The notes below the pieces were generated by a model. It was given only the letters and a program-made list of their open reading frames with translations, had not been told where the DNA came from and searched no databases. From the NCBI RefSeq assembly GCF_002979975.1, contig NZ_PCQD01000006.1, positions 186,001-250,000 on the forward strand: 64,000 nt of DNA, written 5' to 3'. The translations under genes were made by a program, and so were the position numbers. This document shows positions 19,056 to 45,307 of this stretch, piece by piece (positions within the stretch are counted from its first letter, which is position 1; every line of letters begins with the position of its first letter). This DNA is from Pseudomonas sp. MYb185. Lineage in GTDB: Bacteria; Pseudomonadota; Gammaproteobacteria; Pseudomonadales; Pseudomonadaceae.

Positions 19056-19248
19056 ATCGCTCCCTCTCCATGCAGCTTGCCAACGTGGTGCGCTCTGAAC
19101 CTGGCCGCAGATGATAAAGACGCCATGGCACTGGCTTACTGTCTTACTCAGCAATATGGATGCCAACCCACCCCAGCAACACCGGTGCCGCCAGTACCGC
19201 CGCGGGCGACTGCAATCCTGAGCCGGGGTCCAGTTCAGGATGAAGGCG

Positions 19249-19264
19249 TTTCTTGCATATTGCA
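19249..19264 (+). promoter_or_regulatory. Putative activator site upstream of the Rid gene
   Basis: TTTCTTGCATATTGCA reads in the direction of transcription about 70-85 bases before the -24 element. It shares ATATTGCA and TTTC with the elements upstream of the racemase-like and CoA-transferase promoters, and is a candidate enhancer for the cluster's sigma-54 activator. Confidence 0.5.
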
Positions 19265-19331
19265 GTGGCCAGGCTGTGCCATGACGTAGTCCAGCTGCCG
19301 GTGGATACCGCCAATGCAGGGCGTCGGCAGC

Positions 19332-19347
19332 TGGCTCGTTTCTTGCT
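19332..19347 (+). promoter_or_regulatory. Sigma-54 promoter of the Rid gene
   Basis: TGGCTCGTTTCTTGCT has GG and GC exactly ten bases apart and matches the -24/-12 consensus closely. Transcription would start near 19358, about 25 bases before the ATG. Confidence 0.8.
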
Positions 19348-19382
19348 CCGATATCAGTGACATTCGCTGAGGGGGTTCCGTG

Positions 19383-19775
19383 ATGCAACGTATACATACC
19401 CAACCTGATCCGTTTGAGTCCTTTGCCCTGTCCCAGGCAATAGCCGTTGGCGAGTGGATCTTCGTATCCGGGCAGGCAGCCCTGAATGATCAGGGCGACA
19501 TTGTTGGGGAGGGCAACTTTCGGCTGCAGGCCGAGGCTGCGTTTGACAACCTGCAGGCGATTCTCAAGGCCGCGCACGCCAGTCTGAAGGATGTGGTCAA
19601 GGTCACCATCTTCGTGACCGACATGCAGTATTTTCCCGATGTGGTGGAGCTGCGGCGGCGCTACTTTACCCCGCCCTATCCAGCCGACAGCATTGTCGAA
19701 GTAAAGGCGCTGGCATTACCGCAACTGATGTTCGAGATCGAGGCCATCGCCATACGCGGCGCAGGTAGCGCATGA
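19383..19775 (+). CDS. Rid (YjgF/YER057c) family protein lacking the catalytic Arg
   Basis: A 130-residue Rid-family protein, normally a trimer that hydrolyses reactive enamines/imines. Recognisable segments are VSGQAALN, AAFDNLQAILKAA, VVKVTIFVTDM and the C-terminal FEIEAIAIRG. In archetypal RidA the active-site arginine lies in an A-R-S-C-V-E-V context; here the matching stretch reads ADSIVEV (Asp102), so enamine deaminase activity as in RidA is doubtful and a Rid4-7-type role is more likely. GAGGGGG precedes GTG-ATG; the ATG is taken, but the adjacent GTG could also start. Sigma-54 promoter upstream. Confidence 0.85.
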   Translation: MQRIHTQPDPFESFALSQAIAVGEWIFVSGQAALNDQGDIVGEGNFRLQAEAAFDNLQAILKAAHASLKDVVKVTIFVTDMQYFPDVVELRRRYFTPPYPADSIVEVKALALPQLMFEIEAIAIRGAGSA

Positions 19776-19794
19776 ATGGCCGAGCGCAGACGCG

Positions 19795-21657
19795 TTACAG
19801 CTCTTCCTCACCGCCGCGTATACGCTTGAGCCGCCGCCACAGTGTGGTCTGGCTGATGCCGAGATACTCCGCGGCCTGTCCCTTGTTGCCACCGAACATC
19901 TGCAGTGCCTTGACGATTTCCTCCTGTTCGATGTTGTGCAGATGCCCGCCGCGCGGCTCCGTCGGCGGTTGCTCGTACAGTTCGGGCAGAATTCTGGGCA
20001 ACGACTCGATCAGCAGTTCACAGTTGCCGTACAGTTTCAGCGAAACGATCAGGCGTTCAACGTAGTTCTCCAATTCCCGCACGTTGCCAGGCCAGCGGTA
20101 ACGGCGAAAAATCGGGGAAACGCCCTTGACCAACTCATCCACCGCCACCTCGATACCGTAGCGCAGCGACTCGTTGCGCATGAGGAACTCGGTCAGCAGC
20201 GGAATGTCTTCCGGGCGCTCGCGCAGCGGCGGAATATGCACCTGGAAGGTGCTGATGCGGTAATACAGATCCTCCCGGAAACGCCCGGCGCGCACCTCCT
20301 CCATCAGGTCCACGTTGGCGGCCGCGACGAACTTGATATTCAGCGCGATGGAGCGGCGTGAGCCGACCGGCGAGACTTCACGCTCCTGCAGGACCCTGAG
20401 TAGCTTGGCCTGCTGGGCCAGGGGCAGCGAGTTGATCTCGTCCATGAAAAAGGTACCGCCGTTTGCGCTTTCGAGCAGGCCCGACTTGCCACCACTCTTG
20501 GCGCTGGTAAAGGCACCCTCGGCGTAGCCGAACAGCTCGGATTCAAACAGCTCCGCCGGAATCGCTGCGCAGTTGATGGCGACAAAGGGCCCATCGGCAT
20601 TGGCACTGGCCTGATGCGCCTGGCGGGCGGCAAGCTCCTTGCCGGTACCTGTCTCACCCCGAATCAGCACCGTACCGGGAGTGGCCCCATACACCAGCAG
20701 CTGGTTCTGCACGTCCGCCATACGGCCAGACTGGTAGACCAACCGGCGATTGTCACCACTCGGTACGGCCACCGGACTGGGCACGACATGGTAGAGATAG
20801 CCCACACGCTCACCATCGACCTCGAACGGCTGCTTGCTCAGGCTGCACAGGCGCTCACCCAGCAGCAGCCCCTCAGCGCTGATACTCTCAGCCTCCAGCA
20901 CCCGGCTATCAAACAGCCCCTCCAGCCGGCGCCGACGGTTGAGTGACGGAACCAGACTGCTGGCGCCAGCATTCCACGATACCAGCCCGCCCTCGCGGTT
21001 GGTCAGTATCTGCGCGTTGGGCGTCTGCTCCATCAGAAACTGCACCAGCGCATGCTGCTGCTGTTGGCGTTTGTGTTCGCCGGCATAACGTATCGCCTTG
21101 CGTACCAGGTTACGGCAGGACTCCCGCGAGTACAGCAGTACCGACTCCAGCCCCCACTGCTGGGCCAGGTCACAGGCGTAGCTGGAGCCAATAACCACGC
21201 CAAACCCCTGGTCACGCAGGTTGTGGAAGATCTCCTTGGCATGTTCTGCGGTGCTGTAGGTGTGATGAGACAGCTCAAGCCCCTCGAACAGGCCGAGCAG
21301 TTCAATGTTGGTCTCCTGTCGCTCATAGGTCATCAACAGGATCCGCGAGGAGATCCGCCGGGCGGTGATGACCGCCTGGACCAGATCCGTTTGCTCCACC
21401 TTCAAGGCCAGTACCGGCATCGGCAAGGTGTCGTTCAGATAAAAGGCATTGGCACCGGCGCTGATGAAGACATCCACCGCCTGGCGTTCGATCAGGTCCC
21501 GGGCGGCGCGCACCGCATCATTGAAAATGTTGTCAATGATGGTGATGCTGGCCAGCGCCTCGAATTCAGGTATGAGACTGTGCACCAGTCTGCTCAGCTT
21601 CGAGTTGCCGATCAGGCACACCCTGACCCGTTCAAGCTCCGCATTGGCAAATTCCAC
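19795..21657 (-). CDS. PrpR-like sigma-54-dependent activator
   Basis: A 620-residue bacterial enhancer-binding protein and likely regulator of the surrounding catabolic genes. Domains: PrpR-type N-terminal sensor (about 1-195), PAS-like segment (200-290), AAA+ domain with Walker A GETGTGKE (334-341) and Walker B FFMDE (to 407), and a Fis-type helix-turn-helix (590-612, GQAAEYLGISQTTLWRRL). The sigma-54 contact loop reads GAFTSA (381-386), not GAFTGA. The GTG start is chosen because AGAGGT lies 6 bases upstream and an AACAATAA motif precedes it; the frame extends 57 codons further, into leuD. Last gene of the operon, giving possible positive feedback. Confidence 0.93.
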   Translation of the reverse strand: MEFANAELERVRVCLIGNSKLSRLVHSLIPEFEALASITIIDNIFNDAVRAARDLIERQAVDVFISAGANAFYLNDTLPMPVLALKVEQTDLVQAVITARRISSRILLMTYERQETNIELLGLFEGLELSHHTYSTAEHAKEIFHNLRDQGFGVVIGSSYACDLAQQWGLESVLLYSRESCRNLVRKAIRYAGEHKRQQQQHALVQFLMEQTPNAQILTNREGGLVSWNAGASSLVPSLNRRRRLEGLFDSRVLEAESISAEGLLLGERLCSLSKQPFEVDGERVGYLYHVVPSPVAVPSGDNRRLVYQSGRMADVQNQLLVYGATPGTVLIRGETGTGKELAARQAHQASANADGPFVAINCAAIPAELFESELFGYAEGAFTSAKSGGKSGLLESANGGTFFMDEINSLPLAQQAKLLRVLQEREVSPVGSRRSIALNIKFVAAANVDLMEEVRAGRFREDLYYRISTFQVHIPPLRERPEDIPLLTEFLMRNESLRYGIEVAVDELVKGVSPIFRRYRWPGNVRELENYVERLIVSLKLYGNCELLIESLPRILPELYEQPPTEPRGGHLHNIEQEEIVKALQMFGGNKGQAAEYLGISQTTLWRRLKRIRGGEEEL

Positions 21658-21697: not shown

Positions 21698-22336
21698 TCA
21701 GGAACGAAAGATCCAGGGTTCCGCCAGCAGTCTTCCAGCCTCGTGTTCCCTGATCTGCTCAGCATACTGCAAGGTCTCGCCAATTTCGTCCAGCCCGCTG
21801 AGCAGATGCTGACGCCGCCCCTCCTCAAGCTCGAAGAACCAACGGAGACTGCCGACTCGCAGCGTCTTTTCCGTCAAGTCCACCTGCGCCTGCAACCCGG
21901 GATCGGCCTGTGCCAGGACGAACAACTGGTCGATGTCGGCCTGCGGCAATCTCAGCGGCAGCAGGCCGTTATTGAAACAGTTGTTGGTAAAGATATCGCC
22001 GAAGCTGGGTGCGATGATGACCCTCACACCAAAATCCCGCAATGCCCAGACCGCATGTTCACGGCTGGAGCCGCAGCCGAAATTGGCCTGGGCCAGCACC
22101 ACGCTACCCTGTCGATAAGGCTCCCGGTTGAGAATGAAGTCGGGATTTTCCCGCCGTGATGCCAGCGGGGTATCGATCTCTCCCGGATCCAGGTAGCGCT
22201 CGTCGTCGAACAGGAAGGGACCGAAACCATGGGAGTCCAGGCTCTTCAGATACTGCTTGGGCAATAACATGTCGGTATCCATGTTGGCCCGGTTCAGCGG
22301 AATGATGATGCCCGTATGCTTGATCAAAGGCTGCAT
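21698..22336 (-). CDS. LeuD-like small subunit of an aconitase-family (de)hydratase
   Basis: A 212-residue swivel-domain subunit matching LeuD in length and motifs (TGIIIPLNRANMDTDMLLPKQYL, NFGCGSSREHAVWALRDFGVRVIIAPSFGDIF). It would form a heterodimer with the LeuC-like protein, whose stop is 3 bases upstream. No leuB or leuA is present, and the pair is embedded in a catabolic operon. It is therefore probably a paralogue hydrating an alkylated maleate such as citraconate or dimethylmaleate, not leucine biosynthesis; this is inference. Confidence 0.85.
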   Translation of the reverse strand: MQPLIKHTGIIIPLNRANMDTDMLLPKQYLKSLDSHGFGPFLFDDERYLDPGEIDTPLASRRENPDFILNREPYRQGSVVLAQANFGCGSSREHAVWALRDFGVRVIIAPSFGDIFTNNCFNNGLLPLRLPQADIDQLFVLAQADPGLQAQVDLTEKTLRVGSLRWFFELEEGRRQHLLSGLDEIGETLQYAEQIREHEAGRLLAEPWIFRS

Positions 22337-22339: not shown

Positions 22340-23755
22340 TCAAAGGCTCCTGAAGTCGACCAGTTCCCCGGCCACTGCGGCAGCGGCGGCCATGGCCGGG
22401 GACATCAGATGGGTGCGCCCGCCCTTGCCCTGACGCCCTTCGAAGTTGCGATTGGAAGTGGCGGCACAACGTTCGCCCGGGTTGAGGCGATCCGCATTCA
22501 TGCCCAGACACATGGAGCAACCCGGCGCGCGCCACTCGAACCCCGCCGCCTTGAAGATGCGGTCCAGCCCCTCACGCTCGGCCTGCAGCCGCACCAGCCC
22601 GGAACCCGGCACCACCAGCGCCTGGCGAACGCGAGCATGTACCCGATGATTACGCAGCACCGAGACAGCCGCGCGAAGGTCCTCGATGCGGGCGTTGGTA
22701 CAGGAACCGATGAATACGCGATCCACGGGTAGTCCAGCCAGCGGCTGTTCCGGTTCCAGCCCCATGTAGGCACGGGCACGCTCCCAATCCAGCCGTTGCA
22801 GGGCATCGCGTGCCTGTGCATCGCTGGGAACACGACCGTCAATCGGCACCACCATGTCCGGAGAGGTCCCCCAGGTGACCTGCGGCTGTACATCCTCGGC
22901 GTCGAGTTCGACGACCTTGTCGAACGGCGCACCCGCATCGGAGTGCAAGGTACTGCGCCAGTTCTGTATCGCCTTTTGCCAGGTCTCGCCCGCAGGCGCC
23001 ATGGGCCGCCCCCTGACGTATCGCTCGGTGACCTCATCGTAGGCCACCAGCCCGACCCGGGCGCCCGCCTCGATGCTCATGTTGCACAGCGTCATCCGCC
23101 CTTCCATGCTCAGGGCCTCGATCGCCGTGCCAGAGAATTCCAGGGCATGACCACTGCCACCGGCGGCACCAATATGCCCGATGATGTACAAGGCCAGGTC
23201 CTTGGCGGTAATCCCCGGCGCCAGCCGGCCATTGACCTGGATACGGAAGTTCTTCAGCTTGCGGCTGCGCAGCGTCTGGGTCGCCAGTACATGTTCGACT
23301 TCGCTGCTGCCGATGCCATGGGCCAGCGCAGCAAAAGCACCGTGGGTGGCGGTGTGGGAATCACCACACACCAGGGTCACCCCCGGCAGGGTAAAACCCT
23401 GCTCTGGCCCGACGATGTGGACTATGCCCTGCCGCGCGTCATCCAGCGCAAACAGGGGAATCTCGAAGTCCCGGCTGTTGCGCTCCAATGCCGCGATCTG
23501 CCGCCGGGCGATGGGATCGGCGACGCCGCCAATGCCCTGTTCGCGGCTGAGCGTCGGCACGTTGTGATCCGGTGTCGCCAGGCTGGTATCGAGCCGCCAG
23601 GGCTGTCGACCCGCCAGGCGCAGGTTGGAAAATGCCTGGGGCGAGGTTACCTCGTGCAACAGATGGCGATCGATATACAGCAGAGCCGAGCCATCCGGCA
23701 TCTCCGCGACCCGGTGCCGCTCCCAGAGTTTGTCATAGAGCGTTTGTGCTCCCAT
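22340..23755 (-). CDS. LeuC-like large subunit of an aconitase-family (de)hydratase
   Basis: A 471-residue 4Fe-4S subunit with all three cluster cysteines: Cys352 in [12 protein letters not shown] and Cys413/Cys416 in [10 protein letters not shown]. Active-site segments [14 protein letters not shown] and [15 protein letters not shown] are intact. Known family reactions are isopropylmalate isomerisation and hydration of citraconate or 2,3-dimethylmaleate. Start [14 protein letters not shown] follows GAGG; an upstream in-frame ATG is less likely. True isopropylmalate isomerase remains possible if the genome has no other leuCD. Confidence 0.87.
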
Positions 23756-23797
23756 ATGTACCTCGAGACAATCAATTATCAACGGTATCGCGCGTCT

Positions 23798-24199
23798 TCA
23801 GCGATGGTGAGGCGTCCAGGGTATCCAGCGATACAGCGCTTCAGTGGTACCGTTGGCGACACGGTAGCCGCAGTAACTATCCAGCCGCCCTCCCGCTTGG
23901 GGCTGGATGATGCATAAAGGGCGCCTGCAGCTCCGCTCGTCGATATCAGCCAGTTCAAGTGCCTGTCTGCTGCGATCCAGCTCAGTACCTGATACCTCGC
24001 GCTGTACACCATCAAGGCGTGCGACGTTGGCCTTGAAATGCCCTACCCAGGCGGCGACATACTGCTCACACAGCGGCGACTGCCGGGGCAACTCCGGCGG
24101 TGCGACACCGCCGGGCTGGGAGGCGCAGGCGCTCAAGCAGAGCGACAGCACGCTAGCCAAGCAGCGCAAGGCACTCCTCCACGCTGCGAACGTCCGCAT
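23798..24199 (-). CDS. Small cysteine-rich lipoprotein of unknown function
   Basis: A 133-residue frame with an N-terminal hydrophobic signal sequence and lipobox LSAC (about residue 26), followed by a roughly 107-residue mature part with several cysteines (SPLCEQY, RRPLCIIQP, DSYCGYRVANGTTEALYRWI). It overlaps the 3' end of the amidohydrolase gene by 47 bases and ends 42 bases before leuC. I do not recognise a family. Signal, lipobox and operon position argue that it is real; a start a few codons downstream cannot be excluded. Confidence 0.6.
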   Translation of the reverse strand: MRTFAAWRSALRCLASVLSLCLSACASQPGGVAPPELPRQSPLCEQYVAAWVGHFKANVARLDGVQREVSGTELDRSRQALELADIDERSCRRPLCIIQPQAGGRLDSYCGYRVANGTTEALYRWIPWTPHHR

Positions 24200-24743
24200 A
24201 CTTGATATTCAAGTCCCTGAGGTTGGCGGCATGCGCCTGCGCATCGCGATCCCCGGTGGCCTGCTCGGGAATCAGCACCCGGAAGTCGTGCTGCAATGCA
24301 TCCACCGCAGTGGCACGCACGCAACCACTGGTGGTCAGGCCGGTGACCATCACACCATCAGCCCCGGCCTGGCGGATCAGCTCCGCCAGGTTGGTGCCGA
24401 AGAAGGCGCTGGCCCAGAACTTCACGATCACCGGCTCATCCGGCCCGGGCTCCAGCCGCGGATCGATTTCCACCAAGGGTGAACCTGCCTGCAGCACATC
24501 CAGTACCGGCAATTTTTCGCGAAATACACGGGCCTGCGCCGGATCGTCATAGGCCACGGTGGTGAAGAACACTGGCCAGCCGCGCCGGCGAAACGCCTCA
24601 AGCAGCTGGGCATTGGCCGCCACCACAGCGTCACAGGCACTGGCCAGCGGGCTGCGTTGTGGATCGGTAAAACCCACGGTCAGGTCAACCAGCACCAGCG
24701 CATAGCGCTGGGCTGGGGTCAGGGAACGGGAATCCAGAGCCAT
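24153..24743 (-). CDS. Isochorismatase-fold amidohydrolase (carbamoylsarcosine/maleamate amidase type)
   Basis: A 196-residue cysteine hydrolase with the triad Asp20, Lys108 and Cys141. The nucleophile context TGLTTSGCVRATAVDA and the tail NLRDLNIKYADV resemble N-carbamoylsarcosine amidase and the maleamate amidase NicF more than isochorismatases. Expected reaction: hydrolysis of a small primary amide or ureido acid to acid plus ammonia. The ATG at MALDSRS follows GAGGTG, 8 bases after hyuB. The context suits hydrolysis of the amide released by HyuAB. Confidence 0.88.
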   Translation of the reverse strand: MALDSRSLTPAQRYALVLVDLTVGFTDPQRSPLASACDAVVAANAQLLEAFRRRGWPVFFTTVAYDDPAQARVFREKLPVLDVLQAGSPLVEIDPRLEPGPDEPVIVKFWASAFFGTNLAELIRQAGADGVMVTGLTTSGCVRATAVDALQHDFRVLIPEQATGDRDAQAHAANLRDLNIKYADVRSVEECLALLG

Positions 24744-24751: not shown

Positions 24752-26605
24752 TCAATTCCAGGATGGGGTAACCGGTGCCGGCAGGCCGGTTTCCTCAAGG
24801 CAGCGCGCCTTGAGCTGATCCAGCGTGCCACCACGATCAAACAGCTGAAGTTCGCCACGCGCGGCGGCCATCTGCTCGCGCAGGCCTGCGGTGGCCTGGG
24901 TTTCGACGGCATCATCGACGATCACCACGCCATAGCGGCGAGCGCCGTCAATGCTGACCAGGCCCTTGCGCACATCGCGCAGCACCAGTGCCGGGTCACG
25001 CGCCAGGGGGTCACCCCAACCGCCACCGCCCCAGGTATCGAACAGCAGCAGATCACCAGCCTTGACCTGAATGTTGTCGCACTTGGCCGGCAATATCTGC
25101 CGGCTGCCATCGGCCCGCAGCAGCTCCTTGCGACTGCGCTCACCCGGCGACCCGCCGTTGACGCCCCAGGGATAGGTCAACCAGCGATCGTCATGGATGG
25201 AGACATCCCCGTCGACCAGCAACCGATAGGCCACGCGCAGACCGTTGCCGCCCCGGTGCAGCCCCGCGCCACCGGAGTCGGCCAGCGTCTCGTAGGTTTC
25301 GATACGCAGCGGGAAGTAGGCCTCGACGAATTCATTGGGTACGTTGGTAAAGCCAGGCCACAGCGAGTGGCCATCCGGTCCATCGCCCACCGGCCGCCCG
25401 GGAATGCCGCCAAAGCCGATCTGGAACAGCTGGAACCACTCGCCTTTCTGGTCATAACCGGAGTACATGAAGTGCGGCGAGTCGGAAAAACCGGCCGCGT
25501 TCATGGCTTCCGGCGTGCCCTGGCCGAGCAGTCCGCCCATCATGTCGAAGATGCGGCCAAGCAGATGCGTGCGACAGGACAGCGCCGCCGGGAAGTTCGG
25601 CTTGAGGATCGAACCCTGGGGAATACGCACTTCGACCAGGTCATAGAAACCATCGTTGAGCAGAATCGCCGGATCATAGAGACTGATGGTCAAGGCGCCG
25701 AAGAAGATCTTGAACATCTCTTCGTTGACATAGAAGTTGACCGAGGAAGGAGCCTGCGGGTCGGTACCCTCGAAGTCGAAGATCGCCTTGTCCCCTTCCC
25801 GCCACAGCGCGCAACGCAGGGTGTATGGTCCCAGCCCGGCACCGTCATCACAGATATAGTCTTCGAACTCCTGACGCTGCTCAGGCACCACCCGGGTGAT
25901 GACCTCGCGCATGGCCCGGTAGGTACGGTCGAGCATTTCCTGCTGGGCACTGTAGAAGGCGTCATCGCCGAAGCGCTCGGCCAGTTCGACGCAGCGCCTG
26001 CCCGCGGTACGGCAGGCGGCGACGATGGCATTCAGGTCGGAGCGGTTCCAGCGCGGCATGCGCACGTTGTGCAGAATGACATCGAGCATGTCGCTGTTCA
26101 TTTCACCGCGGCGATACAGCTTGACCGGGGGAATGCGAATACCTTCTTCCCAGATGGTGCTGGCATTGGTCGGCAGACTGCCGGGAACCTTGCCACCCAC
26201 ATCGGACATATGCCCGAACATGGCAGCATAGTTGATGATCCGCCCATCCTTGAAGATCGGCATGAGCACCAGCCAGTCCGGCAGATGGCTGACGGCGCCG
26301 TTGCACAGATAGGGGTCATTGGTCAGGAAGATGTCCCCTTCTTCGATCTCGCCCTCATAGCTGTCGAGGAAACCGGTGATGAAGGAGCCGAACTGTCCGA
26401 CGATCATCTTGCCCTCGGATGTGGCGATCATCGGGAAGGCATCGCCCTGCTCGCGGATGCCCGGACTCATGGCGGTACGGAACAGTACCGCGTCCATTTC
26501 CTTGCGGGCGTTGGCCAGCGCGTTCTCGACAATATCGATGGTGATGTTGTCCACGTCGATACGCTGGAACGGGGTGTTGTTGGTCTGTTTTATTTTCGCA
26601 ACCAT
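24752..26605 (-). CDS. hyuB: Hydantoinase/oxoprolinase family protein, subunit B
   Basis: A 617-residue HyuB family subunit, working with HyuA in ATP-dependent opening of cyclic amides or imides (N-methylhydantoin, 5-oxoproline) or in ketone carboxylation. Seen: VDNITIDIVENALANARKEMDAVLFRTAMSP-like N-terminus, GDIFLTNDPYLCNGAVSHLPD, HMSDVGGKVPGS and the C-terminal GVNGGSPGERS and DTWGGGGWGDPL motifs. Length is normal for hydantoinases and shorter than acetone carboxylase beta; no gamma subunit is nearby. Start follows AGGAG, 5 bases after hyuA. Confidence 0.9.
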   Translation of the reverse strand: MVAKIKQTNNTPFQRIDVDNITIDIVENALANARKEMDAVLFRTAMSPGIREQGDAFPMIATSEGKMIVGQFGSFITGFLDSYEGEIEEGDIFLTNDPYLCNGAVSHLPDWLVLMPIFKDGRIINYAAMFGHMSDVGGKVPGSLPTNASTIWEEGIRIPPVKLYRRGEMNSDMLDVILHNVRMPRWNRSDLNAIVAACRTAGRRCVELAERFGDDAFYSAQQEMLDRTYRAMREVITRVVPEQRQEFEDYICDDGAGLGPYTLRCALWREGDKAIFDFEGTDPQAPSSVNFYVNEEMFKIFFGALTISLYDPAILLNDGFYDLVEVRIPQGSILKPNFPAALSCRTHLLGRIFDMMGGLLGQGTPEAMNAAGFSDSPHFMYSGYDQKGEWFQLFQIGFGGIPGRPVGDGPDGHSLWPGFTNVPNEFVEAYFPLRIETYETLADSGGAGLHRGGNGLRVAYRLLVDGDVSIHDDRWLTYPWGVNGGSPGERSRKELLRADGSRQILPAKCDNIQVKAGDLLLFDTWGGGGWGDPLARDPALVLRDVRKGLVSIDGARRYGVVIVDDAVETQATAGLREQMAAARGELQLFDRGGTLDQLKARCLEETGLPAPVTPSWN

Positions 26606-26612
26606 TGTTGTT
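26605..26612 (-). promoter_or_regulatory. Crc/Hfq-type CA motif at the hyuB start
   Basis: AACAACAA fits AAnAAnAA perfectly. It overlaps both the hyuA TAA stop and the first base of the hyuB ATG, so bound Hfq/Crc would block hyuB initiation directly. Confidence 0.55.
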
Positions 26613-28674: not shown

Positions 28675-28718
28675 GTTGCCTCCAGCACTTTTATTGGAAT
28701 TATGTTGCGCCATGGAAA

Positions 28719-34108: not shown

Positions 34109-34116
34109 TTATTGTT
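34109..34116 (-). promoter_or_regulatory. Crc/Hfq-type CA motif before the MMPL gene
   Basis: AACAATAA encodes the last Gln codon and TAA stop of the YCF48 gene while lying 2 bases before the MMPL ATG and directly after GGAG. Confidence 0.5.
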
Positions 34117-36004: not shown

Positions 36005-37204
36005 TCAGCCCACCGCCTTCTGTTGTTTCAGTTCGGCGATGCGCGCTGCGTCATAGCCCAGAATCTGCTGCAGGACCCTGTCGGTGTGCTGGCCCAGCAG
36101 GGGCGGCGCGGTGTAGGTATCGGCGCTATCGGCACTGAGTTTGATCGGGTTGCCAGGCGCCTCGACACTGCCACCCAAGGGGTGAGGTACATCCACCACC
36201 ATCTGCCGATGGCGTACCTGCGGATCGGCCAGCGCCTCGCTGAAGCGATTGACCGGGCCACAGGGCACCCGCACCGCGGTCAGCTGTTCAACCCAATAGG
36301 CGGTGGTGTTGGTCTGCAGTACTTCATTGAGAATGCCGTCGATCAACGCCTTGTTGGCCAGGCGCACCGGCTGGGTCTTGTATTTGGGGTCCTTGAGCTG
36401 CTCGACATCCAACAGCCCTACCAGGTTGTCCCAGAAACTGTCGAAGATGACCGCGATGACAATGAAGCCGTCGGAAGTGGCGTAGGTGTTGTAGGGCACG
36501 TGCACGAAGTGACCGTTACCTAAAGGCTCCGGGTTCTCGCCACTGAGCAGGTGCATGGTCGCCATGTAGTTCAGCATGCTGACCTGGCAATCGAGCATGC
36601 TGATATCCACATGCTGGCCGTGGCCCTTGCTGTGCCGGGCCTGCAGCGCAGCCAATACGCCCATGACCGCAAACATGCCACCGCCCAGGTCACCAATGGG
36701 TATACCGGCACGCATGGGCGTATTCGCATCCAGACCGGTGATCGACATGCCGCCGCCTATGCCCTGGACCACCTGATCGAAGGCGGGCCGCAGATAGTTG
36801 GGCCCATCCTGCCCAAAGCCGGATACCGAGCAGGTAATGATGCGCGGGTTGATGTGCTTGAGGTGTTCAAAATCGATCTTCAGCTTCTTCGGCACACCGG
36901 CGCTGAAGTTATCCAGAACGACATCCGCCTGACGTACCAGATCATGGAACACCGCCAGACCCTGCTCGCTTTTCAAGTCGATGCAGACGCTCTGCTTGTT
37001 ACGATTGAGCGTAAGGAAATAGGCCCCCATGCCTTTGAATGAGTGCCTCGGATCACCAGCCAGCAACGCCCGCGTACCTTCACCCGCAAGAGGTTCAACT
37101 TTGATCGTCTCGGCCCCGAGGTCCGCCAGAAGCATCCCGGCGTAAGGGCCGGACAACATATGCGTCAGATCGAGGATGCGAATTCCCTCTAAAGGTTTGC
37201 TCAT
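36005..37204 (-). CDS. Class III (CaiB/BaiF) CoA-transferase
   Basis: A 399-residue family III CoA-transferase: N-terminal GIRILDLTHMLSGPYAGMLLADLGAETIKVE, the VVLDNFSAGVPKKLKID segment, SVSGFGQDGP and the central GDLGGGMFAVMGVLAALQARHSKGHGQHVDISMLD. It would transfer CoA to a carboxylic acid formed by the upstream reactions. First gene of the 13-gene operon, 31 bases downstream of a predicted sigma-54 transcription start. The ribosome site is A-rich (AAAGAG). Confidence 0.9.
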   Translation of the reverse strand: MSKPLEGIRILDLTHMLSGPYAGMLLADLGAETIKVEPLAGEGTRALLAGDPRHSFKGMGAYFLTLNRNKQSVCIDLKSEQGLAVFHDLVRQADVVLDNFSAGVPKKLKIDFEHLKHINPRIITCSVSGFGQDGPNYLRPAFDQVVQGIGGGMSITGLDANTPMRAGIPIGDLGGGMFAVMGVLAALQARHSKGHGQHVDISMLDCQVSMLNYMATMHLLSGENPEPLGNGHFVHVPYNTYATSDGFIVIAVIFDSFWDNLVGLLDVEQLKDPKYKTQPVRLANKALIDGILNEVLQTNTTAYWVEQLTAVRVPCGPVNRFSEALADPQVRHRQMVVDVPHPLGGSVEAPGNPIKLSADSADTYTAPPLLGQHTDRVLQQILGYDAARIAELKQQKAVG

Positions 37205-37245: not shown

Positions 37246-37261
37246 AGCAAGTACCTTGCCA
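37246..37261 (-). promoter_or_regulatory. Sigma-54 promoter of the CoA-transferase operon
   Basis: The minus strand reads TGGCAAGGTACTTGCT, with GG and GC ten bases apart, a near-consensus -24/-12 element. Predicted start is near 37235. Confidence 0.82.
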
Positions 37262-37444: not shown

Positions 37445-37474
37445 AAAAAAAAGCCGGCACCCGGAGGTGCCGGC
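37445..37474 (-). terminator. Rho-independent terminator after the second oxidoreductase gene
   Basis: On the minus strand a 9-bp stem GCCGGCACC/GGTGCCGGC with a 4-base loop is followed by eight T residues. It separates the racemase-to-oxidoreductase operon from the CoA-transferase operon. Confidence 0.93.
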
Positions 37475-39633: not shown

Positions 39634-41751
39634 TCAGGCCTGCGGGGCGCCCATGGCGCTGCGCCAGTCTGCACCGAAGCCTTCCAGCTCGCCTTGCTCG
39701 ATAAAGCGCGCCGGATCGCCCAGCAGCTCACGACCGGCCAGCATGCCCTCGTAGATACTGTCCTGCAGCGGGCGCGGCAGGTTGGCATCACCGATGCAAT
39801 ACAGCCGGGCGACCCGCCCCTGCAACTGGCGGTAGAGTGCATCCTCCGGCTGGTGCCCGGCGGCGATGACGAAGCTATCCGCCTCCAGCACCTCGCTGTC
39901 CTCGTCGGTAAACAGGTTGAGCAACTGGGCGCGCTCACCCTCTATGCGCCGAACCCAGCTATTGATCGTGTAACGCAGCCCCTTGGCGAAGACATGCCGA
40001 TAATTCACCGGCAGATCCAGAGTGAGCGCCAGGTTCGGTGCCAGTGCGGTAAAACGACTGACCAGATGGACTTCATGGCCACGGTCAAGCAGGAATTCCG
40101 CGGTTCCCAGGGCATAACGCCCACCATCCTCGTCGAACAGCACCACCCGCTTGCCGACCCGCTCCGGTGCCTGCAGTACCTCGATGACGCTGAGCACATT
40201 GTCCTGCTCCGTGCCCGGCACTCGATCCACTGCCGGCCGGGTCGAGGTAAACGCGGTCTTCAAGGGAGTCGAGCCGGTGGCCAGAATCACGCCATCAGCG
40301 CCCCAGCCCATGATGGCCTCGGCATCCAGCCCGGTATTCAGGCAAATCTCCACCCCGGCCTTGCGCAACTGGCGCTCCAGATCGCGTGCGATAAAGCCGA
40401 ACTTCTGCCGACGTGGCAACTGGGCGGCGAGCAGCGTCTGCCCGCCAAGCTGCTCGCCACGCTCCACCAGTGTGACCCGGTGACCACGCTGGCGCAGGGT
40501 CAGTGCGGCCTTCATGCCTGCCGGGCCGCCGCCGACCACCAACCAGTTCGCTGGCCGTTCAGTCTCCTGCAGCGTATGCAGGCCGAAACGCTGCTCGCGC
40601 CCGGCTGCCGGGTTGACCACACAGGAGATGGCATTGCCCGCCATCAGGCGGGCAATGCAGGCCTGGTTGCAACGGATGCAGTGGGTGATCTCGTCCTCGC
40701 GGCCTTCGAGCAGCTTGTTGCAGAACTCGGGATCGGCTATCTGGCTGCGGGTCATGGCCACCATATCGGTGGCACCTTCGGCGACCAGGGCCTCGGCCTT
40801 GGCCGGGTCAACGATGTGACCGACAATGAAAACGGGAATATCACTGACCTGCCGTAGCGCCGCGCGCAACCGGGCGCCATCCTCCACCAGCCAGTTTTCC
40901 GGATAGTCGCCCGGCGGAATCTGATCCGCATGCGCTGCGTAGGTACCAGCCGTGGCACTGACGTAGTCGATCAAACCGGTCTCCACCATCTTGCGGGTCA
41001 TATCGATGGCGGTATCGGCCTGCATCCCGTCGACCGTGCACTCATCCAGGGAAACGCGGATGCCAACCACAAAATCCGGCCCAACCGCATCACGTACCCG
41101 GCGCATGGTCTCGATCGGGAAACGTACGATATTGTCCAGGCTGCCGCCGTACTCATCGGTGCGCTTGTTGTAGACAAAGGACAGGAACTGCTGGTGCAGA
41201 TAGCCATGGGAATAGTGCAGCTCCACGCCATCGAAGCCAGCCGCCTTGGCATTGCTGGCGGCCAGGGCAAAGTAGTCCGAGACCTCTTCCATCTCGGCCT
41301 GGGTGATTTCCTTGGCCCACTCGTTGTAGGCCGGCGACTTCATGGTGGACGGCCCCATGAGCAGACGGTAGTCATCGAGGGCACCGCTACGCCCCTGTGG
41401 GCCGAAGTGGATCAGTTGAGCGAAAATGCGGCCGCCAAAGGCATGCACCGCCTGCACCATCTGCGCATCACGCTCGATCATTTCCTTGCGATCACCCCGC
41501 GCCAGGGAGCGATTCGGCCCGGTGGACTGCGGATGGACATGCCGCGCGCCGGTCACGATCAGGCCAATGCCACCCTTGGCACGCTCGGCCTGGTAGTGGA
41601 TATCACGGTCATTGGTCAGGCCGTCCGCCGAGGCAAAACCCTTGGCATGCGCAGTCTGCATCAAGCGGTTGCGAATCGTGACGTTGCCGATTTTCAGGGG
41701 CGAGAAAATCGAGGGATAGCGGAGCTCCCCTGGTTGTCTGGGTTGGGTCAT
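39634..41751 (-). CDS. NADH:flavin oxidoreductase, FMN/4Fe-4S/FAD type (copy 1)
   Basis: A 705-residue paralogue of the following gene with the same layout: TIM-barrel FMN domain (FSPLKIGNVTIRNRLMQTAHAKGF), 4Fe-4S cysteines Cys358, Cys361, Cys365 and Cys377, and a C-terminal FAD/NAD(P) domain (VVGGGPAGMKAALTLRQRGHRVTLVE). The two copies differ widely outside the motifs, so they probably act on different intermediates. An AATAACAA motif lies in the leader. It follows the SnoaL-like gene by 102 bases. Confidence 0.9.
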   Translation of the reverse strand: MTQPRQPGELRYPSIFSPLKIGNVTIRNRLMQTAHAKGFASADGLTNDRDIHYQAERAKGGIGLIVTGARHVHPQSTGPNRSLARGDRKEMIERDAQMVQAVHAFGGRIFAQLIHFGPQGRSGALDDYRLLMGPSTMKSPAYNEWAKEITQAEMEEVSDYFALAASNAKAAGFDGVELHYSHGYLHQQFLSFVYNKRTDEYGGSLDNIVRFPIETMRRVRDAVGPDFVVGIRVSLDECTVDGMQADTAIDMTRKMVETGLIDYVSATAGTYAAHADQIPPGDYPENWLVEDGARLRAALRQVSDIPVFIVGHIVDPAKAEALVAEGATDMVAMTRSQIADPEFCNKLLEGREDEITHCIRCNQACIARLMAGNAISCVVNPAAGREQRFGLHTLQETERPANWLVVGGGPAGMKAALTLRQRGHRVTLVERGEQLGGQTLLAAQLPRRQKFGFIARDLERQLRKAGVEICLNTGLDAEAIMGWGADGVILATGSTPLKTAFTSTRPAVDRVPGTEQDNVLSVIEVLQAPERVGKRVVLFDEDGGRYALGTAEFLLDRGHEVHLVSRFTALAPNLALTLDLPVNYRHVFAKGLRYTINSWVRRIEGERAQLLNLFTDEDSEVLEADSFVIAAGHQPEDALYRQLQGRVARLYCIGDANLPRPLQDSIYEGMLAGRELLGDPARFIEQGELEGFGADWRSAMGAPQA

Positions 41752-41853: not shown

Positions 41854-42243
41854 TCAGCGCAGTACATTCTCACCACTCATGAAAACGAATACCCGGCGAA
41901 ACTTGCCTTCTTCGACATACCAGAAGTTGCAGTTTCGCAGACGGGTTTCGTTACCCTGATAATCCTTGAGATAAACATTGAATCGTGCACAGACAGTCTG
42001 TGTAGTTTCATCGGCCGCCACTTCAAAGTCGCCATGCCAGATCTCTTCATAACCGGAAAACAGGTTCTCGAACATCTTGCGCACACCAACATGGCCACTG
42101 TGAGTAAGGTTGTCGGTCTGAATGGTGAACTCGACATCTTCATGACAGCAGTCCAGCACTTGCTGCATATTCTTCTTATCAACATTACCGAAGTATGAAA
42201 GGGTCGCCAGCTCGGTCAGTTGTTCGCGGGTCAAACGGGTCAT
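41854..42243 (-). CDS. SnoaL/NTF2-like protein
   Basis: A 129-residue alpha+beta-barrel protein of the SnoaL-like/ring-hydroxylating small-subunit type (DKKNMQQVLDCCHEDVEFTIQTDN; HSGHVGVRKMFENLFSGYEEIWHGDFEV; NCNFWYVEEGKFRRVFVFMSG). Relatives are isomerases, small dehydratases or non-catalytic ligand binders. Start MTRLTREQL follows CAGGAG and an AATAATAA motif. Catalytic residues cannot be assigned with confidence. Confidence 0.75.
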   Translation of the reverse strand: MTRLTREQLTELATLSYFGNVDKKNMQQVLDCCHEDVEFTIQTDNLTHSGHVGVRKMFENLFSGYEEIWHGDFEVAADETTQTVCARFNVYLKDYQGNETRLRNCNFWYVEEGKFRRVFVFMSGENVLR

Positions 42244-42265: not shown

Positions 42266-43012
42266 TCAGTTAACGAATGCGTGATAGGCCGCATCATTCG
42301 GGTTTTCCGGCGCAGGGTAGGCTTTGCGGCTGTGGCTCAACCCCAGGCTCAACATCAATTCACAGAGTTTGTAGGCCACCTGGCCTGGATTGATTACCGG
42401 AATCGGCAATCGCTCAGTCAGGTAAGCGTGGGACTGGTGCATGGTGGTCGAGCCAAGGACGATGACATCCGCGCCATCTTCGTCCATGGCCTTGCGCGCC
42501 TCCGCCTCCAGCTTGGCAAACACCACATCTTCCTTGCCACCAAGCAGCTCCTTGAGATCTGGCCGGGTATCGATCGAGCGCAGTGATGCCACACGATCCC
42601 ACAAGCGGTACTCGGTCAGGGTTTTTTCATACAGGGGGAACCACTCATCCCACATGGTGATGACGCTGAACTTCTTGCCCAGCATGCAGGCCATATAGAA
42701 CGCCGACATACCTGGCGCGATTACCGGAATATCCAGACGGGAACGCAGGGCAGCCAGCCCGGAGTCGCTGACGGTATCAATACATACCGCACTATAACCT
42801 TCATCCTGGGCACGTATGCCCGCCTCGACCACCGAGAAATCCATCAGCAGGACGTCATAGGCACTATCAGCCAGCGAGGCTCCGCGAGCTACCGGGACAA
42901 ACTCGGGATGAAAGCCAGGCAGGATCAAACTGTCAGGTAACTGCGAAGCACGATTCATTGCACCGGCCTGATCCATGGGGATCGGGATGATGACCTTGAT
43001 ACGGTATGTCAT
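42266..43012 (-). CDS. Asp/Glu/hydantoin racemase-superfamily protein with one catalytic Cys
   Basis: A 248-residue protein of the Asp/Glu racemase, hydantoin racemase and maleate isomerase superfamily. The first catalytic cysteine position is kept (Cys77 in AVCIDTVSDSG), but the second, usually LGC(T/A)GM, reads VLGSTTM with Ser188. A two-base racemase mechanism is therefore unlikely; an isomerase or lyase using one cysteine is possible. Start MTYRIKVIIP follows AAGGAG. First gene of the racemase-SnoaL-oxidoreductase operon with a sigma-54 promoter. Confidence 0.85.
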   Translation of the reverse strand: MTYRIKVIIPIPMDQAGAMNRASQLPDSLILPGFHPEFVPVARGASLADSAYDVLLMDFSVVEAGIRAQDEGYSAVCIDTVSDSGLAALRSRLDIPVIAPGMSAFYMACMLGKKFSVITMWDEWFPLYEKTLTEYRLWDRVASLRSIDTRPDLKELLGGKEDVVFAKLEAEARKAMDEDGADVIVLGSTTMHQSHAYLTERLPIPVINPGQVAYKLCELMLSLGLSHSRKAYPAPENPNDAAYHAFVN

Positions 43013-43078: not shown

Positions 43079-43094
43079 TGCAATAAGGCGGCCA
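43079..43094 (-). promoter_or_regulatory. Sigma-54 promoter of the racemase-like operon
   Basis: The minus strand reads TGGCCGCCTTATTGCA with GG and GC ten bases apart. Predicted start is near 43068. Confidence 0.82.
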
Positions 43095-43172: not shown

Positions 43173-43205
43173 TGCAATATGAAATCGTTCAGTGCAATAG
43201 GAAAT
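43173..43205 (-). promoter_or_regulatory. Twofold direct repeat, putative activator site
   Basis: On the plus strand TGCAATATGAAAT (43173-43185) and TGCAATAGGAAAT (43193-43205) repeat with exact 20-bp spacing, two helical turns. They lie 80-110 bases upstream of the -24 element, and similar elements precede the other two sigma-54 promoters. Confidence 0.6.
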
Positions 43206-43222
43206 GAAGGCAGAATAAGAAA

Positions 43223-43245
43223 CGCCGTGTCAGTATGACACGGCG
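43223..43245 (-). terminator. Rho-independent terminator of the esterase gene
   Basis: A perfect 10-bp stem CGCCGTGTCA/TGACACGGCG with a 3-base loop is followed on the minus strand by TTTCTTATT, 30 bases after the esterase stop codon. Confidence 0.85.
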
Positions 43246-43275
43246 CTCCAGCTCCATACGCGTGCATCCAACAGC

Positions 43276-45288
43276 TTAATCCGATTCCGGGAACGCCTCC
43301 TCCAGGCCCGTTTCCATGGTCAGACTCTGGGCAATGCGTATGTAAGTGTCGTTCTCCGAGGTATACGCCGGCCACTCGAAGTCCTCGATGGAAGGGTCAC
43401 CGCTACGGGCAAAGTTGGCCCACATGGCACGCATGTTGTCGGTTACCGCCTCATCATTCGGGTTCCAGCCCGGGTGGTTCATGAAGAAGCCTTCCGGTGT
43501 CGGCGTATCTCCCCCCACCGGGTCCTGCAGGCCGGTCAGCCCCAGCAGGTAATGGGACAGGAAGCTGTCCGGATAGTCGAATACGTACACCAGCTCGGCA
43601 CCGTGATAGGCCAGCGCGCCCTGGCTCGACCAGTTGTCCGGCAGATGATCGAATACATAGGTGAAGACCGCCGACGCGTTGTTATCAGCCATCCACGGCA
43701 TGTACCACTTGAGGCCATCGATCAGGCCAGGTGTATCGCCCTGGTTGGCACCAGCGATGACCGGTACATCATTGTGTGCCCCGGCCTCAAAACTCTCGCG
43801 GATGCCGCCCAGCATGTAAATACCATCCACGTTCGGCGAGAATAGCCGACCGGTGCTGTCCGCCACGGCCGCCAATTCAGGCCAGGGAACGGCGCGCAAT
43901 GCCGCGGCGACGTCCTCGGCATCCTGCACCTGGAGCGCTTCGGCAACAGCGACGCCATCGGCCTCTTCCGCCGCCAGCAGGTTCTTGATCGGCATCAGTT
44001 GATCATCGGGCCCGGCCATGCCGCTCTGCACTATGGCCTTGTGGAACAGCCCGCTGGCCATGGGTGAGTTGATCAATGACAGTACCTTGCCGCCGCCACC
44101 GGACTCACCAAAGATGGTGACATTATCCGGGTCGCCGCCGAAGCCGGCGATGTTGTCACGCACCCACTCCAGCGCCGCGATGAGGTCCAGTTGCCCGTAG
44201 TTGCCCGAGGTGCTGTCCGGCGACTCGGCGGTCAGTGCCGGATGCGCCATATAGCCGAACGGCCCGAGACGGTGGTTGACCGTGACCACCACGACGCCTT
44301 CCTGCGGCAGGGAGGTGTTGTTGAAGGCCTTGGTGTTGCCGGTGAGGATGGCGAAGCCGCCCCCATGGAACCAGACCATCACCGGCAGTTTCTCGCCATC
44401 ATGCCCATCCGGCACGGTGATGTTCAGGTACAGGCTGTCCTCACTCATCCCCCCTTCACCGAAAGCGGCATAGGCCGGGTTCTGTGCCGACTGGTCAGCC
44501 CAGCCGGTGGCCCAGCGCACGCCCTCCCAGGCCTCTGGCTTGACTGGCGGTTTCCAGCGCAGCTCGCCCACTGGGGGCTTGGCATAGGGCACCCCATACC
44601 AGGCCCAGGTACCGTCCGGATGCTGGAAGCCCGACAGTTTGCCGTATTCGGTATCGACCACCTTCTGCGGCGCAATGGCACGGCCCAGATGCTCCTGTGC
44701 CTCCGCCTCGGCCACCACTGCTCGCGGGCCGGGGAAGGTATCGGTGAACAGCGGTGGCTCGGCGCTGTTCAGATCCGCCAGCAAATCGGCCAATGACGCG
44801 CTGAAGGCGGCGTAATCCATGTCGAAGGCCAGACGGTCCGCGTAGTCGGACACCCGTTCGGCTATCTCGGGGGTAATGGTGATCCCATTGCTGACATTGC
44901 CATCCTGATCCAGGGTCTGCAGCAAGACGGCGATATTGGTCACTGTCTCATCGGTGTGATCGTCGGCATCCGCGACCAGATCCAGTGGTGTGATCACCTC
45001 CGCTCCGTTCGCTTCCCCCAGTTTCAGATCGCCCAGATAGAAGGCGACGGTTTCGTTGTGTCGATATTCGAAGGTGCCCTGACTGTCGGTCACCCCATCC
45101 TGGCTATCGGTCGCATAACGCAAACCGGAAACCGGACTGTCGACAAATACCCCGGTGCGGGTGTCGTGGCGCTTGCTGCTACCGCCGCCTCCGTCAAAGC
45201 AACCGGTCTGGCTGGCTGCCAGGGCAAGGATGGCAAGCAGCAGCGGCAAGCGTCCCGCCGCGCTGCGAAGTGCATTGTTGGTTGTCAT
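43276..45288 (-). CDS. Type-B carboxylesterase lipoprotein with N-terminal accessory domain
   Basis: A 670-residue exported protein: signal sequence ending in SQTGC (lipid-attachment Cys near residue 29, with an unusual Gln at -3), a GGGGSS linker, an approximately 190-residue accessory domain (VFVDSPVSGLRYATDSQDGVTD, EYRHNETVAFYLGDLKLG) and a type-B carboxylesterase domain. The nucleophile elbow is GESGGGG and the oxyanion region is WFHGGGFAILTG. It probably hydrolyses an ester at the cell surface before uptake. The ATG at MTTNNAL is preferred because the upstream in-frame ATG forms part of the ATGAGG ribosome site. Confidence 0.88.
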   Translation of the reverse strand: MTTNNALRSAAGRLPLLLAILALAASQTGCFDGGGGSSKRHDTRTGVFVDSPVSGLRYATDSQDGVTDSQGTFEYRHNETVAFYLGDLKLGEANGAEVITPLDLVADADDHTDETVTNIAVLLQTLDQDGNVSNGITITPEIAERVSDYADRLAFDMDYAAFSASLADLLADLNSAEPPLFTDTFPGPRAVVAEAEAQEHLGRAIAPQKVVDTEYGKLSGFQHPDGTWAWYGVPYAKPPVGELRWKPPVKPEAWEGVRWATGWADQSAQNPAYAAFGEGGMSEDSLYLNITVPDGHDGEKLPVMVWFHGGGFAILTGNTKAFNNTSLPQEGVVVVTVNHRLGPFGYMAHPALTAESPDSTSGNYGQLDLIAALEWVRDNIAGFGGDPDNVTIFGESGGGGKVLSLINSPMASGLFHKAIVQSGMAGPDDQLMPIKNLLAAEEADGVAVAEALQVQDAEDVAAALRAVPWPELAAVADSTGRLFSPNVDGIYMLGGIRESFEAGAHNDVPVIAGANQGDTPGLIDGLKWYMPWMADNNASAVFTYVFDHLPDNWSSQGALAYHGAELVYVFDYPDSFLSHYLLGLTGLQDPVGGDTPTPEGFFMNHPGWNPNDEAVTDNMRAMWANFARSGDPSIEDFEWPAYTSENDTYIRIAQSLTMETGLEEAFPESD

Positions 45289-45299
45289 GTTCTGCCTCA

Positions 45300-45307
45300 T
45301 TGTTCTT
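45300..45307 (-). promoter_or_regulatory. Crc/Hfq-type CA motif before the esterase gene
   Basis: AAGAACAA fits AAnAAnAA and sits immediately upstream of the GAGG ribosome site. Confidence 0.45.

Follow-up and report, generated by a model that had tools for sequence, protein, structure and literature searches.

Gene content of the locus

A stretch of 64,000 nucleotides of Pseudomonas sp. MYb185 (contig NZ_PCQD01000006.1, positions 186,001 to 250,000), called the window here, carries a set of genes built around HyuA and HyuB, subunits of the hydantoinase/oxoprolinase type. The host genome is 4.1 Mb in size, and the set lies inside the window on the minus strand, together with the sequence elements described with it. 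Pfam and NCBIfam scans identified 18 minus-strand genes at about 19.8-45.3 kb, and their families matched those named in an earlier note on this DNA. Seventeen of the genes, at 19795-43012, are one coherent set arranged in two adjacent blocks. The eighteenth, a carboxylesterase gene (43276-45300) with an inverted repeat and a T-rich run read from the sequence on its 3' side (43245-43223), lies outside the conserved set and was excluded because it was present in 1 of 51 HyuAB neighbourhoods, the window's own. The earlier note had grouped all 18 genes and had put a surface esterase first in the pathway; the esterase was rejected as a first step, and the grouping stands for the other 17 genes.

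Block 1 has the order Race, SnoaL, OYE2, OYE1. It opens with Race (42266..43012, PF01177), a protein of the allantoin/hydantoin-racemase fold, followed by a SnoaL-like protein (41854..42243, PF12680). OYE2 (39634..41751, PF00724 and Pyr_redox_2) is a flavoenzyme of the TMADH/2,4-dienoyl-CoA reductase type with the Cys cluster CIRCNQAC at 358, and OYE1 (37498..39576) is a second flavoenzyme of the same type with the cluster CLRCNQGC at 348.

Block 2 begins with a class III CoA-transferase (CoAT; 36005..37204, PF02515), predicted to activate a hydroxylated diacid, and an HMG-CoA-lyase-like enzyme (HMGL; 35079..36002, NF004283). A transport block follows, consisting of a YCF48/BNR-repeat protein (34109..35086, PF14870), an MMPL/RND-type membrane transporter (31692..34106, PF03176), a DUF1302 protein, probably of the outer membrane (30020..31711, PF06980), and a DUF1329/LolA-like protein (28747..30003, PF07044; start placed at a signal-peptide-like Met). 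Next come HyuA (26611..28713; PF01968, PF05378, PF19278), HyuB (24752..26605, PF02538), an isochorismatase-fold cysteine amidase (24153..24743, PF00857) and orf133 (23798..24199), which encodes a small predicted lipoprotein without a Pfam family and overlaps the end of the amidase gene. The block continues with the large and small subunits of a LeuCD-like hydratase, LeuC (22340..23782) and LeuD (21698..22336, from family scans), and closes with a PrpR-type sigma-54-dependent activator (19795..21657; start estimated) that has PrpR_N, sigma-54 (Sigma54_activat) and Fis-type (HTH_8) domains.

Conservation of the gene set

We tabulated 51 HyuAB neighbourhoods, the window included, in which HyuAB is present in 51 of 51 by construction; nine rows were chosen via the amidase and the window via the finding itself. 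The table draws on stretches from 20 of the 31 HyuB genomes of the order and on all 17 HyuB genomes outside it, with one 3.4-kb contig (L061) omitted. The neighbourhoods are about 12 to 64 kb long, so absences in the table are to be read as lower bounds. With a threshold of E 1e-180, HyuB had a match in 31 of the 390 order genomes; with E 1e-150 it had one in 14 of 398 phylum-draw and 7 of 369 class-draw genomes. The draws share some genomes, and each contains the window genome.

CoAT was present in 43 and HMGL in 45 of the 51 neighbourhoods, and the amidase in 39 (29 of 41 after removal of the window and the nine amidase-picked rows). LeuC and LeuD each occurred in 19, PrpR in 26, a TonB-dependent receptor in 27, the DUF1302/1329 block in 10, Race in 11, SnoaL in 12 and OYE in 9. 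Since these families surround HyuAB in most of the neighbourhoods, the grouping is more than chance. What emerges is a genuine catabolic gene set, conserved across genomes, in which each block is preceded by a promoter-type sequence. The co-occurrence of the core families across genomes, which the earlier note had named as a check, was borne out.

The amidase scan of genome contigs gave nine loci. Seven of them, from Halopseudomonas, three Pseudomonas, Stutzerimonas degradans, Marinobacter santoriniensis and Alloalcanivorax marinus, share the gene order BNR-MMPL-DUF1302-DUF1329-HyuA-HyuB-amidase-orf133-LeuC-LeuD-PrpR. In the remaining two the amidase accompanies CoAT-HMGL-HyuA-HyuB. orf133 is kept throughout the loci of window architecture at 36-71% identity. 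Race-SnoaL-OYE2-OYE1 lies upstream in five of the seven order-keeping loci and is rearranged in Alloalcanivorax; no such block was seen close to the Marinobacter set, and no Race match was found anywhere in that genome. Extra genes stand ahead of CoAT in L052, L054 and L055. In L054 (14281-15339) and L055 (4405-5469), which belong to S. degradans and Pseudomonas sp. 5P, the stretch from OYE1 to CoAT also holds a luciferase-like monooxygenase gene, RutA-like by eye, next to a flavin-reductase-like gene.

The neighbourhoods range from Proteobacteria to a Geobacillus plasmid. The latter, pGYMC5201, carries the bare core of a sigma-54 regulator, amidase, HyuA, HyuB, CoAT and HMGL, with LeuC and LeuD beyond an insertion sequence (IS) element, and its core proteins are 31-57% identical to those of the window. 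Across the loci outside the order, HMGL is 36-39% and CoAT 29-33% identical to the window's proteins, yet they fill the same places. Variants were also found on a conjugative Acidiphilium plasmid and on a Novosphingobium plasmid, while pJE1 and pTomTYG65b carry HyuAB with no CoAT, HMGL, amidase or LeuCD in view. Five of 20 plasmid records were read, and L140 was judged through the table only. In L090, L091 and L093-L096 a VOC/glyoxalase-fold protein, by eye methylmalonyl-CoA-epimerase-like, lies near CoAT, HMGL or HyuA; it is perhaps an epimerase for a CoA ester before cleavage.

Promoter-type sequences and proposed regulation

The intergenic gaps from CoAT to PrpR are -47 to +40 bases. Blocks 1 and 2 are parted by 293 bases, which hold a terminator-like hairpin with 8 T, read from the sequence 3' of OYE1 (37453..37474), and then a -24/-12 (sigma-54-type) sequence, TGGCAAGGTACTTGC (37247..37261), upstream of CoAT. 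The distance from TGGCAAGGTACTTGC to CoAT is 57 bases; it is 57-61 bases in the loci of window architecture and 86 in Marinobacter. A second -24/-12 sequence, TGGCCGCCTTATTGC (43080..43094), lies upstream of Race.

Conservation of these sites was tested in 24 chosen loci of the 51. The site before CoAT was found in 8/8 loci of window architecture with at most one mismatch, and a sequence like that before Race in 8/8 loci tested with at most two. Among the loci of the TonB type, six of eight with PrpR beside the set have the CoAT-upstream site (at most two mismatches), and none of three with no PrpR in the locus does (L094, L104, L105). L131-L133, in which PrpR stands ahead of TonB, have no site upstream of CoAT. 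A sigma-54 site upstream of HyuA, taken as a control, found no support, as only 2 of 17 loci reached two mismatches or fewer. Over the whole window, seven -24/-12 matches were found against 8.4 expected from shuffles. As this is the chance level, the promoter case rests on position and conservation.

Because conserved -24/-12 sites precede both blocks and a PrpR-type activator gene closes the second, we infer that the blocks are transcribed as two co-regulated operons, operon 1 from Race and operon 2 from CoAT, under the local activator. The earlier note had proposed three transcription units with a local activator; the activator gene was confirmed and is joined by sites conserved in 8/8 loci each, co-regulation appears probable, and the three units gave way to two promoter-led operons.

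Predicted functions of the core enzymes

Hydant_A_N, Hydantoinase_A and Hydantoinase_B domains are encoded side by side, the arrangement of the HyuA and HyuB superfamily. The nearest PDB match of HyuA was N-methylhydantoinase (438 bits), followed by 5-oxoprolinase (356 bits), and its similarity to N-methylhydantoinase exceeded that to acetone or acetophenone carboxylases. This relationship makes ATP-dependent ring opening by HyuAB likely. An ordinary 5-oxoprolinase in oxoproline metabolism was rejected on the same scores. Identity with caprolactamase CapAB was also rejected (493.6 and 207.4 bits, 1000 required for each), with CapA and CapB still the best NCBIfam models.

The amidase has the triad Asp24-Lys112-Cys145 (numbering of a 200-residue frame; Cys from alignment). 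Its best PDB match was N-carbamoylsarcosine amidohydrolase (144 bits), and the matches were 26st, 4l07, 3ot4 and 1nba, of which we take 4l07 and 3ot4 to be maleamate amidases. It is thus assigned to the N-carbamoylsarcosine/maleamate type and is predicted to deamidate a maleamate. The best PDB matches of CoAT were a formyl-CoA transferase (288 bits) and succinate-hydroxymethylglutarate CoA-transferase (272 bits); assignment to the succinate-glutarate CoA-transferase (SUGCT) equivalog was rejected (303.8 bits, 750 required). HMGL passed the HMG-CoA lyase subfamily model NF004283 (338 bits, cut-off 246), and the motifs RDG, HFH and GGLGGCP, with the catalytic Arg, His and Cys, are present.

These last two matches also bear on another explanation, in which the genes serve a branched C5/C6 acid pathway (itaconate, citramalate or hydroxymethylglutarate type) and HyuAB is carboxylase-like or an unrelated passenger. 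CoAT lies near SUGCT, HMGL near true HMG-CoA lyases, and a TRAP/CitE/CoA-transferase/MmgE cluster adjoins the set. However, CoAT and HMGL accompany HyuAB, which is there by construction, in 43 and 45 of the 51 neighbourhoods, mostly with the amidase, and HyuA is closer to N-methylhydantoinase than to the carboxylases. We consider this pathway very improbable, and imide or lactam opening by HyuAB is preferred.

In some relatives further families join the core. Proteins of the phosphoenolpyruvate mutase/isocitrate lyase family, to which dimethylmalate lyase belongs, lie alongside HyuAB and LeuC in L099 and L149. PuuE-type proteins adjoin the amidase and LeuCD at L134, L149 and L169 and in Acidiphilium; the genomes G792 and G369 show this arrangement. 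The fungal imidase HxnM is related to the PuuE family (PMC9304392).

Origin of the LeuCD-like hydratase

The window LeuC scored 706 bits with TIGR00170 (cut-off 560) and keeps the 4Fe-4S cysteines 361, 422 and 425. A separate LeuC in the window genome (G000:C25), 67% identical to it, precedes LeuD and a gene that by eye is LeuB-like. In the LeuC tree, in which the program flagged long branches, the window LeuC groups with nine other copies from loci of window architecture, with support of 90/80, under the program's star level. The group lies apart from 17 copies labelled housekeeping, a label given, genome by genome, to whichever copy lay outside the set, with the leuB context seen for the window genome's copy only. 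Given the other leuCD locus with its LeuB-like gene and the operon-specific LeuC group, ordinary leucine metabolism was rejected for the window LeuCD, which is not taken as the leucine enzyme set. The earlier note had likewise set this pair apart from leucine metabolism, and one of the cases that it had named as fatal to its proposal, plain oxoproline and leucine enzymes, was not found.

The LeuC of three f48 loci formed a further clade, and yet another united L097 with the CpeT-linked or second copies. The LeuC of L134 and L099, though in the set, grouped with housekeeping copies. As copies from several branches of the tree are present, LeuCD-type hydratases seem to have joined the neighbourhood more than once. 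A third LeuC with LeuD in the window genome, at G000:C4:32488-33891 (L148), is 53% identical to the window LeuC and groups with L211-L213.

The Race-SnoaL-OYE block

The model of Race (pLDDT 84) had the allantoin racemase 3qvk as its best Foldseek match (TM-score 0.84). Thr80 and Ser188 occupy the positions of the catalytic cysteines and are invariant in nine sequences, the window included; Cys77, the cysteine left in their vicinity, is replaced by Leu in L155. With both catalytic cysteines replaced, Race cannot use the two-cysteine racemase mechanism, and it was rejected as an Asp/Glu/hydantoin racemase or maleate isomerase of that type. The earlier note had given a cis-trans or similar rearrangement to a single-cysteine protein of the racemase superfamily, and this role falls with the same residues.

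SnoaL was present in all 11 neighbourhoods with Race. A 'polyketide cyclase' is cited for the C-N opening of trihydroxypyridine in other bacteria in a study of fungal nicotinate use (PMC9304392), which may serve as a lead only to the reaction of Race. The long form of bilirubin reductase BilR was rejected for both OYE flavoenzymes (325.9 and 333.8 bits, 750 required), and the matches of OYE2 to the bilirubin reductase and BaiCD models were far under cut-off.

Another reading is a ureide or hydantoin pathway, in which HyuAB would open a hydantoin-like ring, the amidase would be an N-carbamoyl hydrolase and the racemase-fold protein would racemise the ring. The best PDB matches, N-methylhydantoinase, N-carbamoylsarcosine amidohydrolase and a hydantoin/allantoin racemase, fit such a route. 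It would require a racemase, whereas both catalytic cysteines are replaced in all nine aligned sequences; an amino acid product would be expected, and aminotransferase and amino-acid dehydrogenase genes are absent among the 18 genes; and LeuCD, the CoA-transferase and the HMG-type lyase would have no role. We regard a ureide pathway as improbable, and the opening of an imide or lactam ring followed by hydration and cleavage remains the preferred reading.

Genes that may point to the substrate

CpeT/CpcT-family genes (PF06206) were found near HyuAB in G249 and G222 (115 and 116 bits, cut-off 21), and in these and in G1121, a genome from another draw, CpeT lies within about 22 kb of HyuAB. In G1121 HyuB, HyuA, HMGL, CoAT, a HapK-like gene and CpeT are found inside 18 kb. 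PF06206 was present in 7 of the 390 order genomes, and all but one of these (G222, G249, G289, G309, G369 and G408) belong to the 31 with HyuB (Fisher p 1e-6, a statistic that ignores kinship). In the seventh, G286, CoAT, HMGL and LeuC adjoin CpeT, together with an AMDase-type and a FAD monooxygenase gene. The seven CpeT genomes represent seven genera and five families.

Seven of the ten CpeT matches in the order sample have core or linked pathway genes nearby. LeuCD lies near CpeT in L167, L169 and L153, and LeuC in L171; CoAT with HMGL in L169, L170, L171 and L153; and an AMDase-type gene with a FAD monooxygenase in L151, L171 and L172. The model of a CpeT homologue (pLDDT 84) best matched CpcT with bound phycocyanobilin (TM-score 0.76 by target) and also matched Arabidopsis CRL, while the sequence similarity to CpcT was weak (25 bits). 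The HapK family (REDY-like in Pfam) was above cut-off in L149, L169 and L217.

Rieske oxygenase genes occur near CpeT at L153:7667-8812, L233:16670-17878 and L234:8120-9244 and encode possible ring-cleaving or side-chain oxygenases for an intact pigment. A recurring CpeT- or HyuAB-linked set in L167-L169, L149 and L232 comprises DUF3108-like, DUF1838, DUF1330, nitrilase-type, SDR and methyltransferase-like genes.

Other genes in some related clusters would suit another hydrophobic N-heterocycle, such as an alkylpyridine- or prodiginine-type alkaloid, as the substrate of the same core chemistry. These are FAD monooxygenases nearest PnpA and then HspB, a pyridine hydroxylase, together with AMDase/EutA-type proteins and HapK. 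The fungal nicotinate route likewise uses an OYE, an imidase and an amidase, according to the available part of its description (PMC9304392), and the CpeT association is not significant in a second sample (given below). Against this substrate class, CpeT tracks HyuB in the order sample, and no pyridine dioxygenase or xanthine-dehydrogenase-type hydroxylase was recognised by eye in the maps read, for which no family search was run. We think such a heterocycle rather unlikely and continue to favour, tentatively, a tetrapyrrole-derived imide.

Comparison with known systems

The dimethylmaleate branch of nicotinate fermentation in Eubacterium barkeri resembles the window set in LeuCD-type hydration of a substituted maleate followed by C-C cleavage. 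That branch uses the hydratase DmdAB and dimethylmalate lyase and to our knowledge has no HyuAB or amidase; the window set differs in its CoA-transferase and HMG-type lyase and in its upstream chemistry. Lactams are opened at the expense of ATP by HyuA/HyuB-type subunits in CapAB (caprolactam) and NmpAB (N-methylpyrrolidone). Here similar subunits stand alongside an amidase, LeuCD, CoAT and HMGL, and the scores are far below the caprolactamase cut-offs. Chloroflexus pairs a class III citramalate CoA-transferase with an HMG-type citramalyl-CoA lyase that cleaves a hydroxylated branched diacid, and the window set is alike in pairing such enzymes, predicted to act on a hydroxylated branched diacid; we know of no imide or amide steps in the Chloroflexus system. 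The cyanobacterial CpcT/CpeT bilin lyases and plant CRL share family and fold with proteins in the clusters of some relatives and are without a match in the window genome.

In Aspergillus nidulans the nicotinate route HxnT-HxnW-HxnM-HxnN includes a flavin alkene reductase, a cyclic imidase and an amidase (PMC9304392, in the part available). It differs in being fungal, in its piperidine-dione (glutarimide-type) intermediate and in its downstream steps. The HxnM-related PuuE-type genes are found in some related clusters and not in the window set.

A tetrapyrrole attacker that resembles one of the hosts has been described. Pseudomonas sp. LM27, which shares 99% similarity with P. stutzeri, is reported to degrade the ring of synthetic nickel and vanadyl porphyrins to compounds of one, two or three pyrrole rings, and a title cited in the same source describes a heme-degrading protein that releases hematinic acid and a tripyrrole (PMC8669743). 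S. degradans, a Stutzerimonas, carries the cluster, whereas the LM27 genes are given, in the part of the source available, only as oxygenases and dehydrogenases. By analogy, LM27 is congenial to a tetrapyrrole substrate. Leaves and lake sediments are reported to contain maleimides and hematinic acid, and a scheme of tetrapyrrole products includes methyl-ethyl- and methyl-vinyl-maleimide (PMC7318184).

Proposed pathway and its weight

Read in chemical order, the families suggest the following route. HyuAB would spend ATP on opening the ring of a cyclic imide or lactam, and the cysteine amidase would free the nitrogen from the resulting half amide of the maleamate type. The LeuCD-like enzyme would hydrate the substituted maleate so formed, CoAT would load the hydroxylated diacid onto CoA, and HMGL would cleave the CoA ester to pyruvate (an alpha-keto acid) and an acyl-CoA. 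A maleimide bearing a methyl group and a substituent R would thus yield pyruvate and R-CH2-CO-CoA, and hematinic acid would yield glutaryl-CoA. The DUF1302/DUF1329/MMPL/BNR block would take up a hydrophobic substrate, with the TonB-dependent receptor in its stead in other lineages, and Race-SnoaL-OYE would form a peripheral module that probably trims a side chain or a pyrrolinone precursor. The order of imide and alkylmaleate steps in the earlier note was judged chemically coherent, and on balance we consider the core order probable. Dialkylmaleimides derived from tetrapyrrole pigments are put forward as likely substrates within this scheme, an assignment that is itself tentative. For the reading as a whole, two blocks encoding a pathway from imide opening to cleavage with these substrates, we estimate a probability of about 0.48.

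Several observations weigh against this reading. LeuCD is missing from 32 and the amidase from 12 of the 51 neighbourhoods, the window LeuC itself satisfies the ordinary leuC model, and the LeuC of L099 is split across two frames. The association of CpeT with HyuB is uncorrected for phylogeny. In a second sample of 79 genomes CpeT occurred in two of the 17 with HyuB and in one of the remaining 62 (p 0.12), with the 62 taken by handle number and not randomly; both samples summed gave p 3e-7. In the order sample the CpeT loci L168 and L173 have accessory genes only and L174 has none. Five of the seven CpeT matches of the second sample were read, and core genes were found in L232 only; L233 and L234 have a Rieske oxygenase near CpeT, and L235 and L236 nothing of the core. 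HapK was above cut-off in two of 30 genomes with HyuB and in one of 50 other genomes (p 0.31; 49 of the latter, besides G286, again taken by handle number) and was rejected as a statistical marker. The links from CpeT to bilins and from HapK to prodigiosin rest on family naming, and a tetrapyrrole ring-opening enzyme was not identified among the genes examined. The window genome has no PF06206 match, so the fragments that feed the pathway there would be smaller ones or reach it in another way. In the literature, the word hydantoinase is absent from the main text of the LM27 paper as far as available (PMC8669743), and the leaf study, in its available part, itself detected hematinic acid and no maleimides (PMC7318184). 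The pyrrole-derived substrate class suggested in the earlier note is thus backed by CpeT in one of two samples and by its place near HyuAB in three genomes, while the association did not reach significance in the second sample.

Neighbouring genes

Beyond the esterase gene lie genes for TRAP DctMQP, a CitE-type lyase, a class III CoA-transferase, MmgE/PrpD, an acyl-CoA dehydrogenase and a MaoC-like protein (45437-54088, minus strand), which together with a LysR gene (54125-55015, plus strand) form an itaconate/citramalate-type cluster. Among seven mapped relatives of window architecture, homologues of CitE, the acyl-CoA dehydrogenase and MaoC adjoin Race in L052 only. On the other side, a gene of the peptidyl-arginine-deiminase family adjoins a carbon-nitrogen hydrolase gene (16153-18132, minus strand), probably of an agmatine pathway. 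Glutamine-synthetase-family genes are located at 59197-63025.

Implications

A literature search, in which subscription journals were thinly covered, found no description of the gene set or of genes for the use of maleimides or other single-ring imides, and a search by family names found no paper on an imide-to-acyl-CoA module spanning Pseudomonas to Geobacillus. Chlorophyll is made and degraded on a scale of 10^12 kg yearly (PMC7318184, in the part available). More doubtfully, the set may be the lower half of an undescribed and widespread pathway by which bacteria mineralise chlorophyll, heme and phycobilins, with dialkylmaleimides as intermediates from their pyrrole rings. HyuAB and the amidase would remove the nitrogen of each ring, and LeuCD, the CoA-transferase and the HMG-type lyase would convert the rest to pyruvate and an acyl-CoA; sister genomes would add a CpcT-like bilin-binding protein, a TonB receptor and oxygenases to deal with the intact pigment. 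If so, one small gene set would make the use of single-ring imides testable, for example in S. degradans and Halopseudomonas xiamenensis, and would supply marker genes for pigment mineralisation. Even with another heterocycle as the substrate, the genes would represent an imide-to-acyl-CoA module, extending from Pseudomonas to Geobacillus, that had no match in the family-name search.

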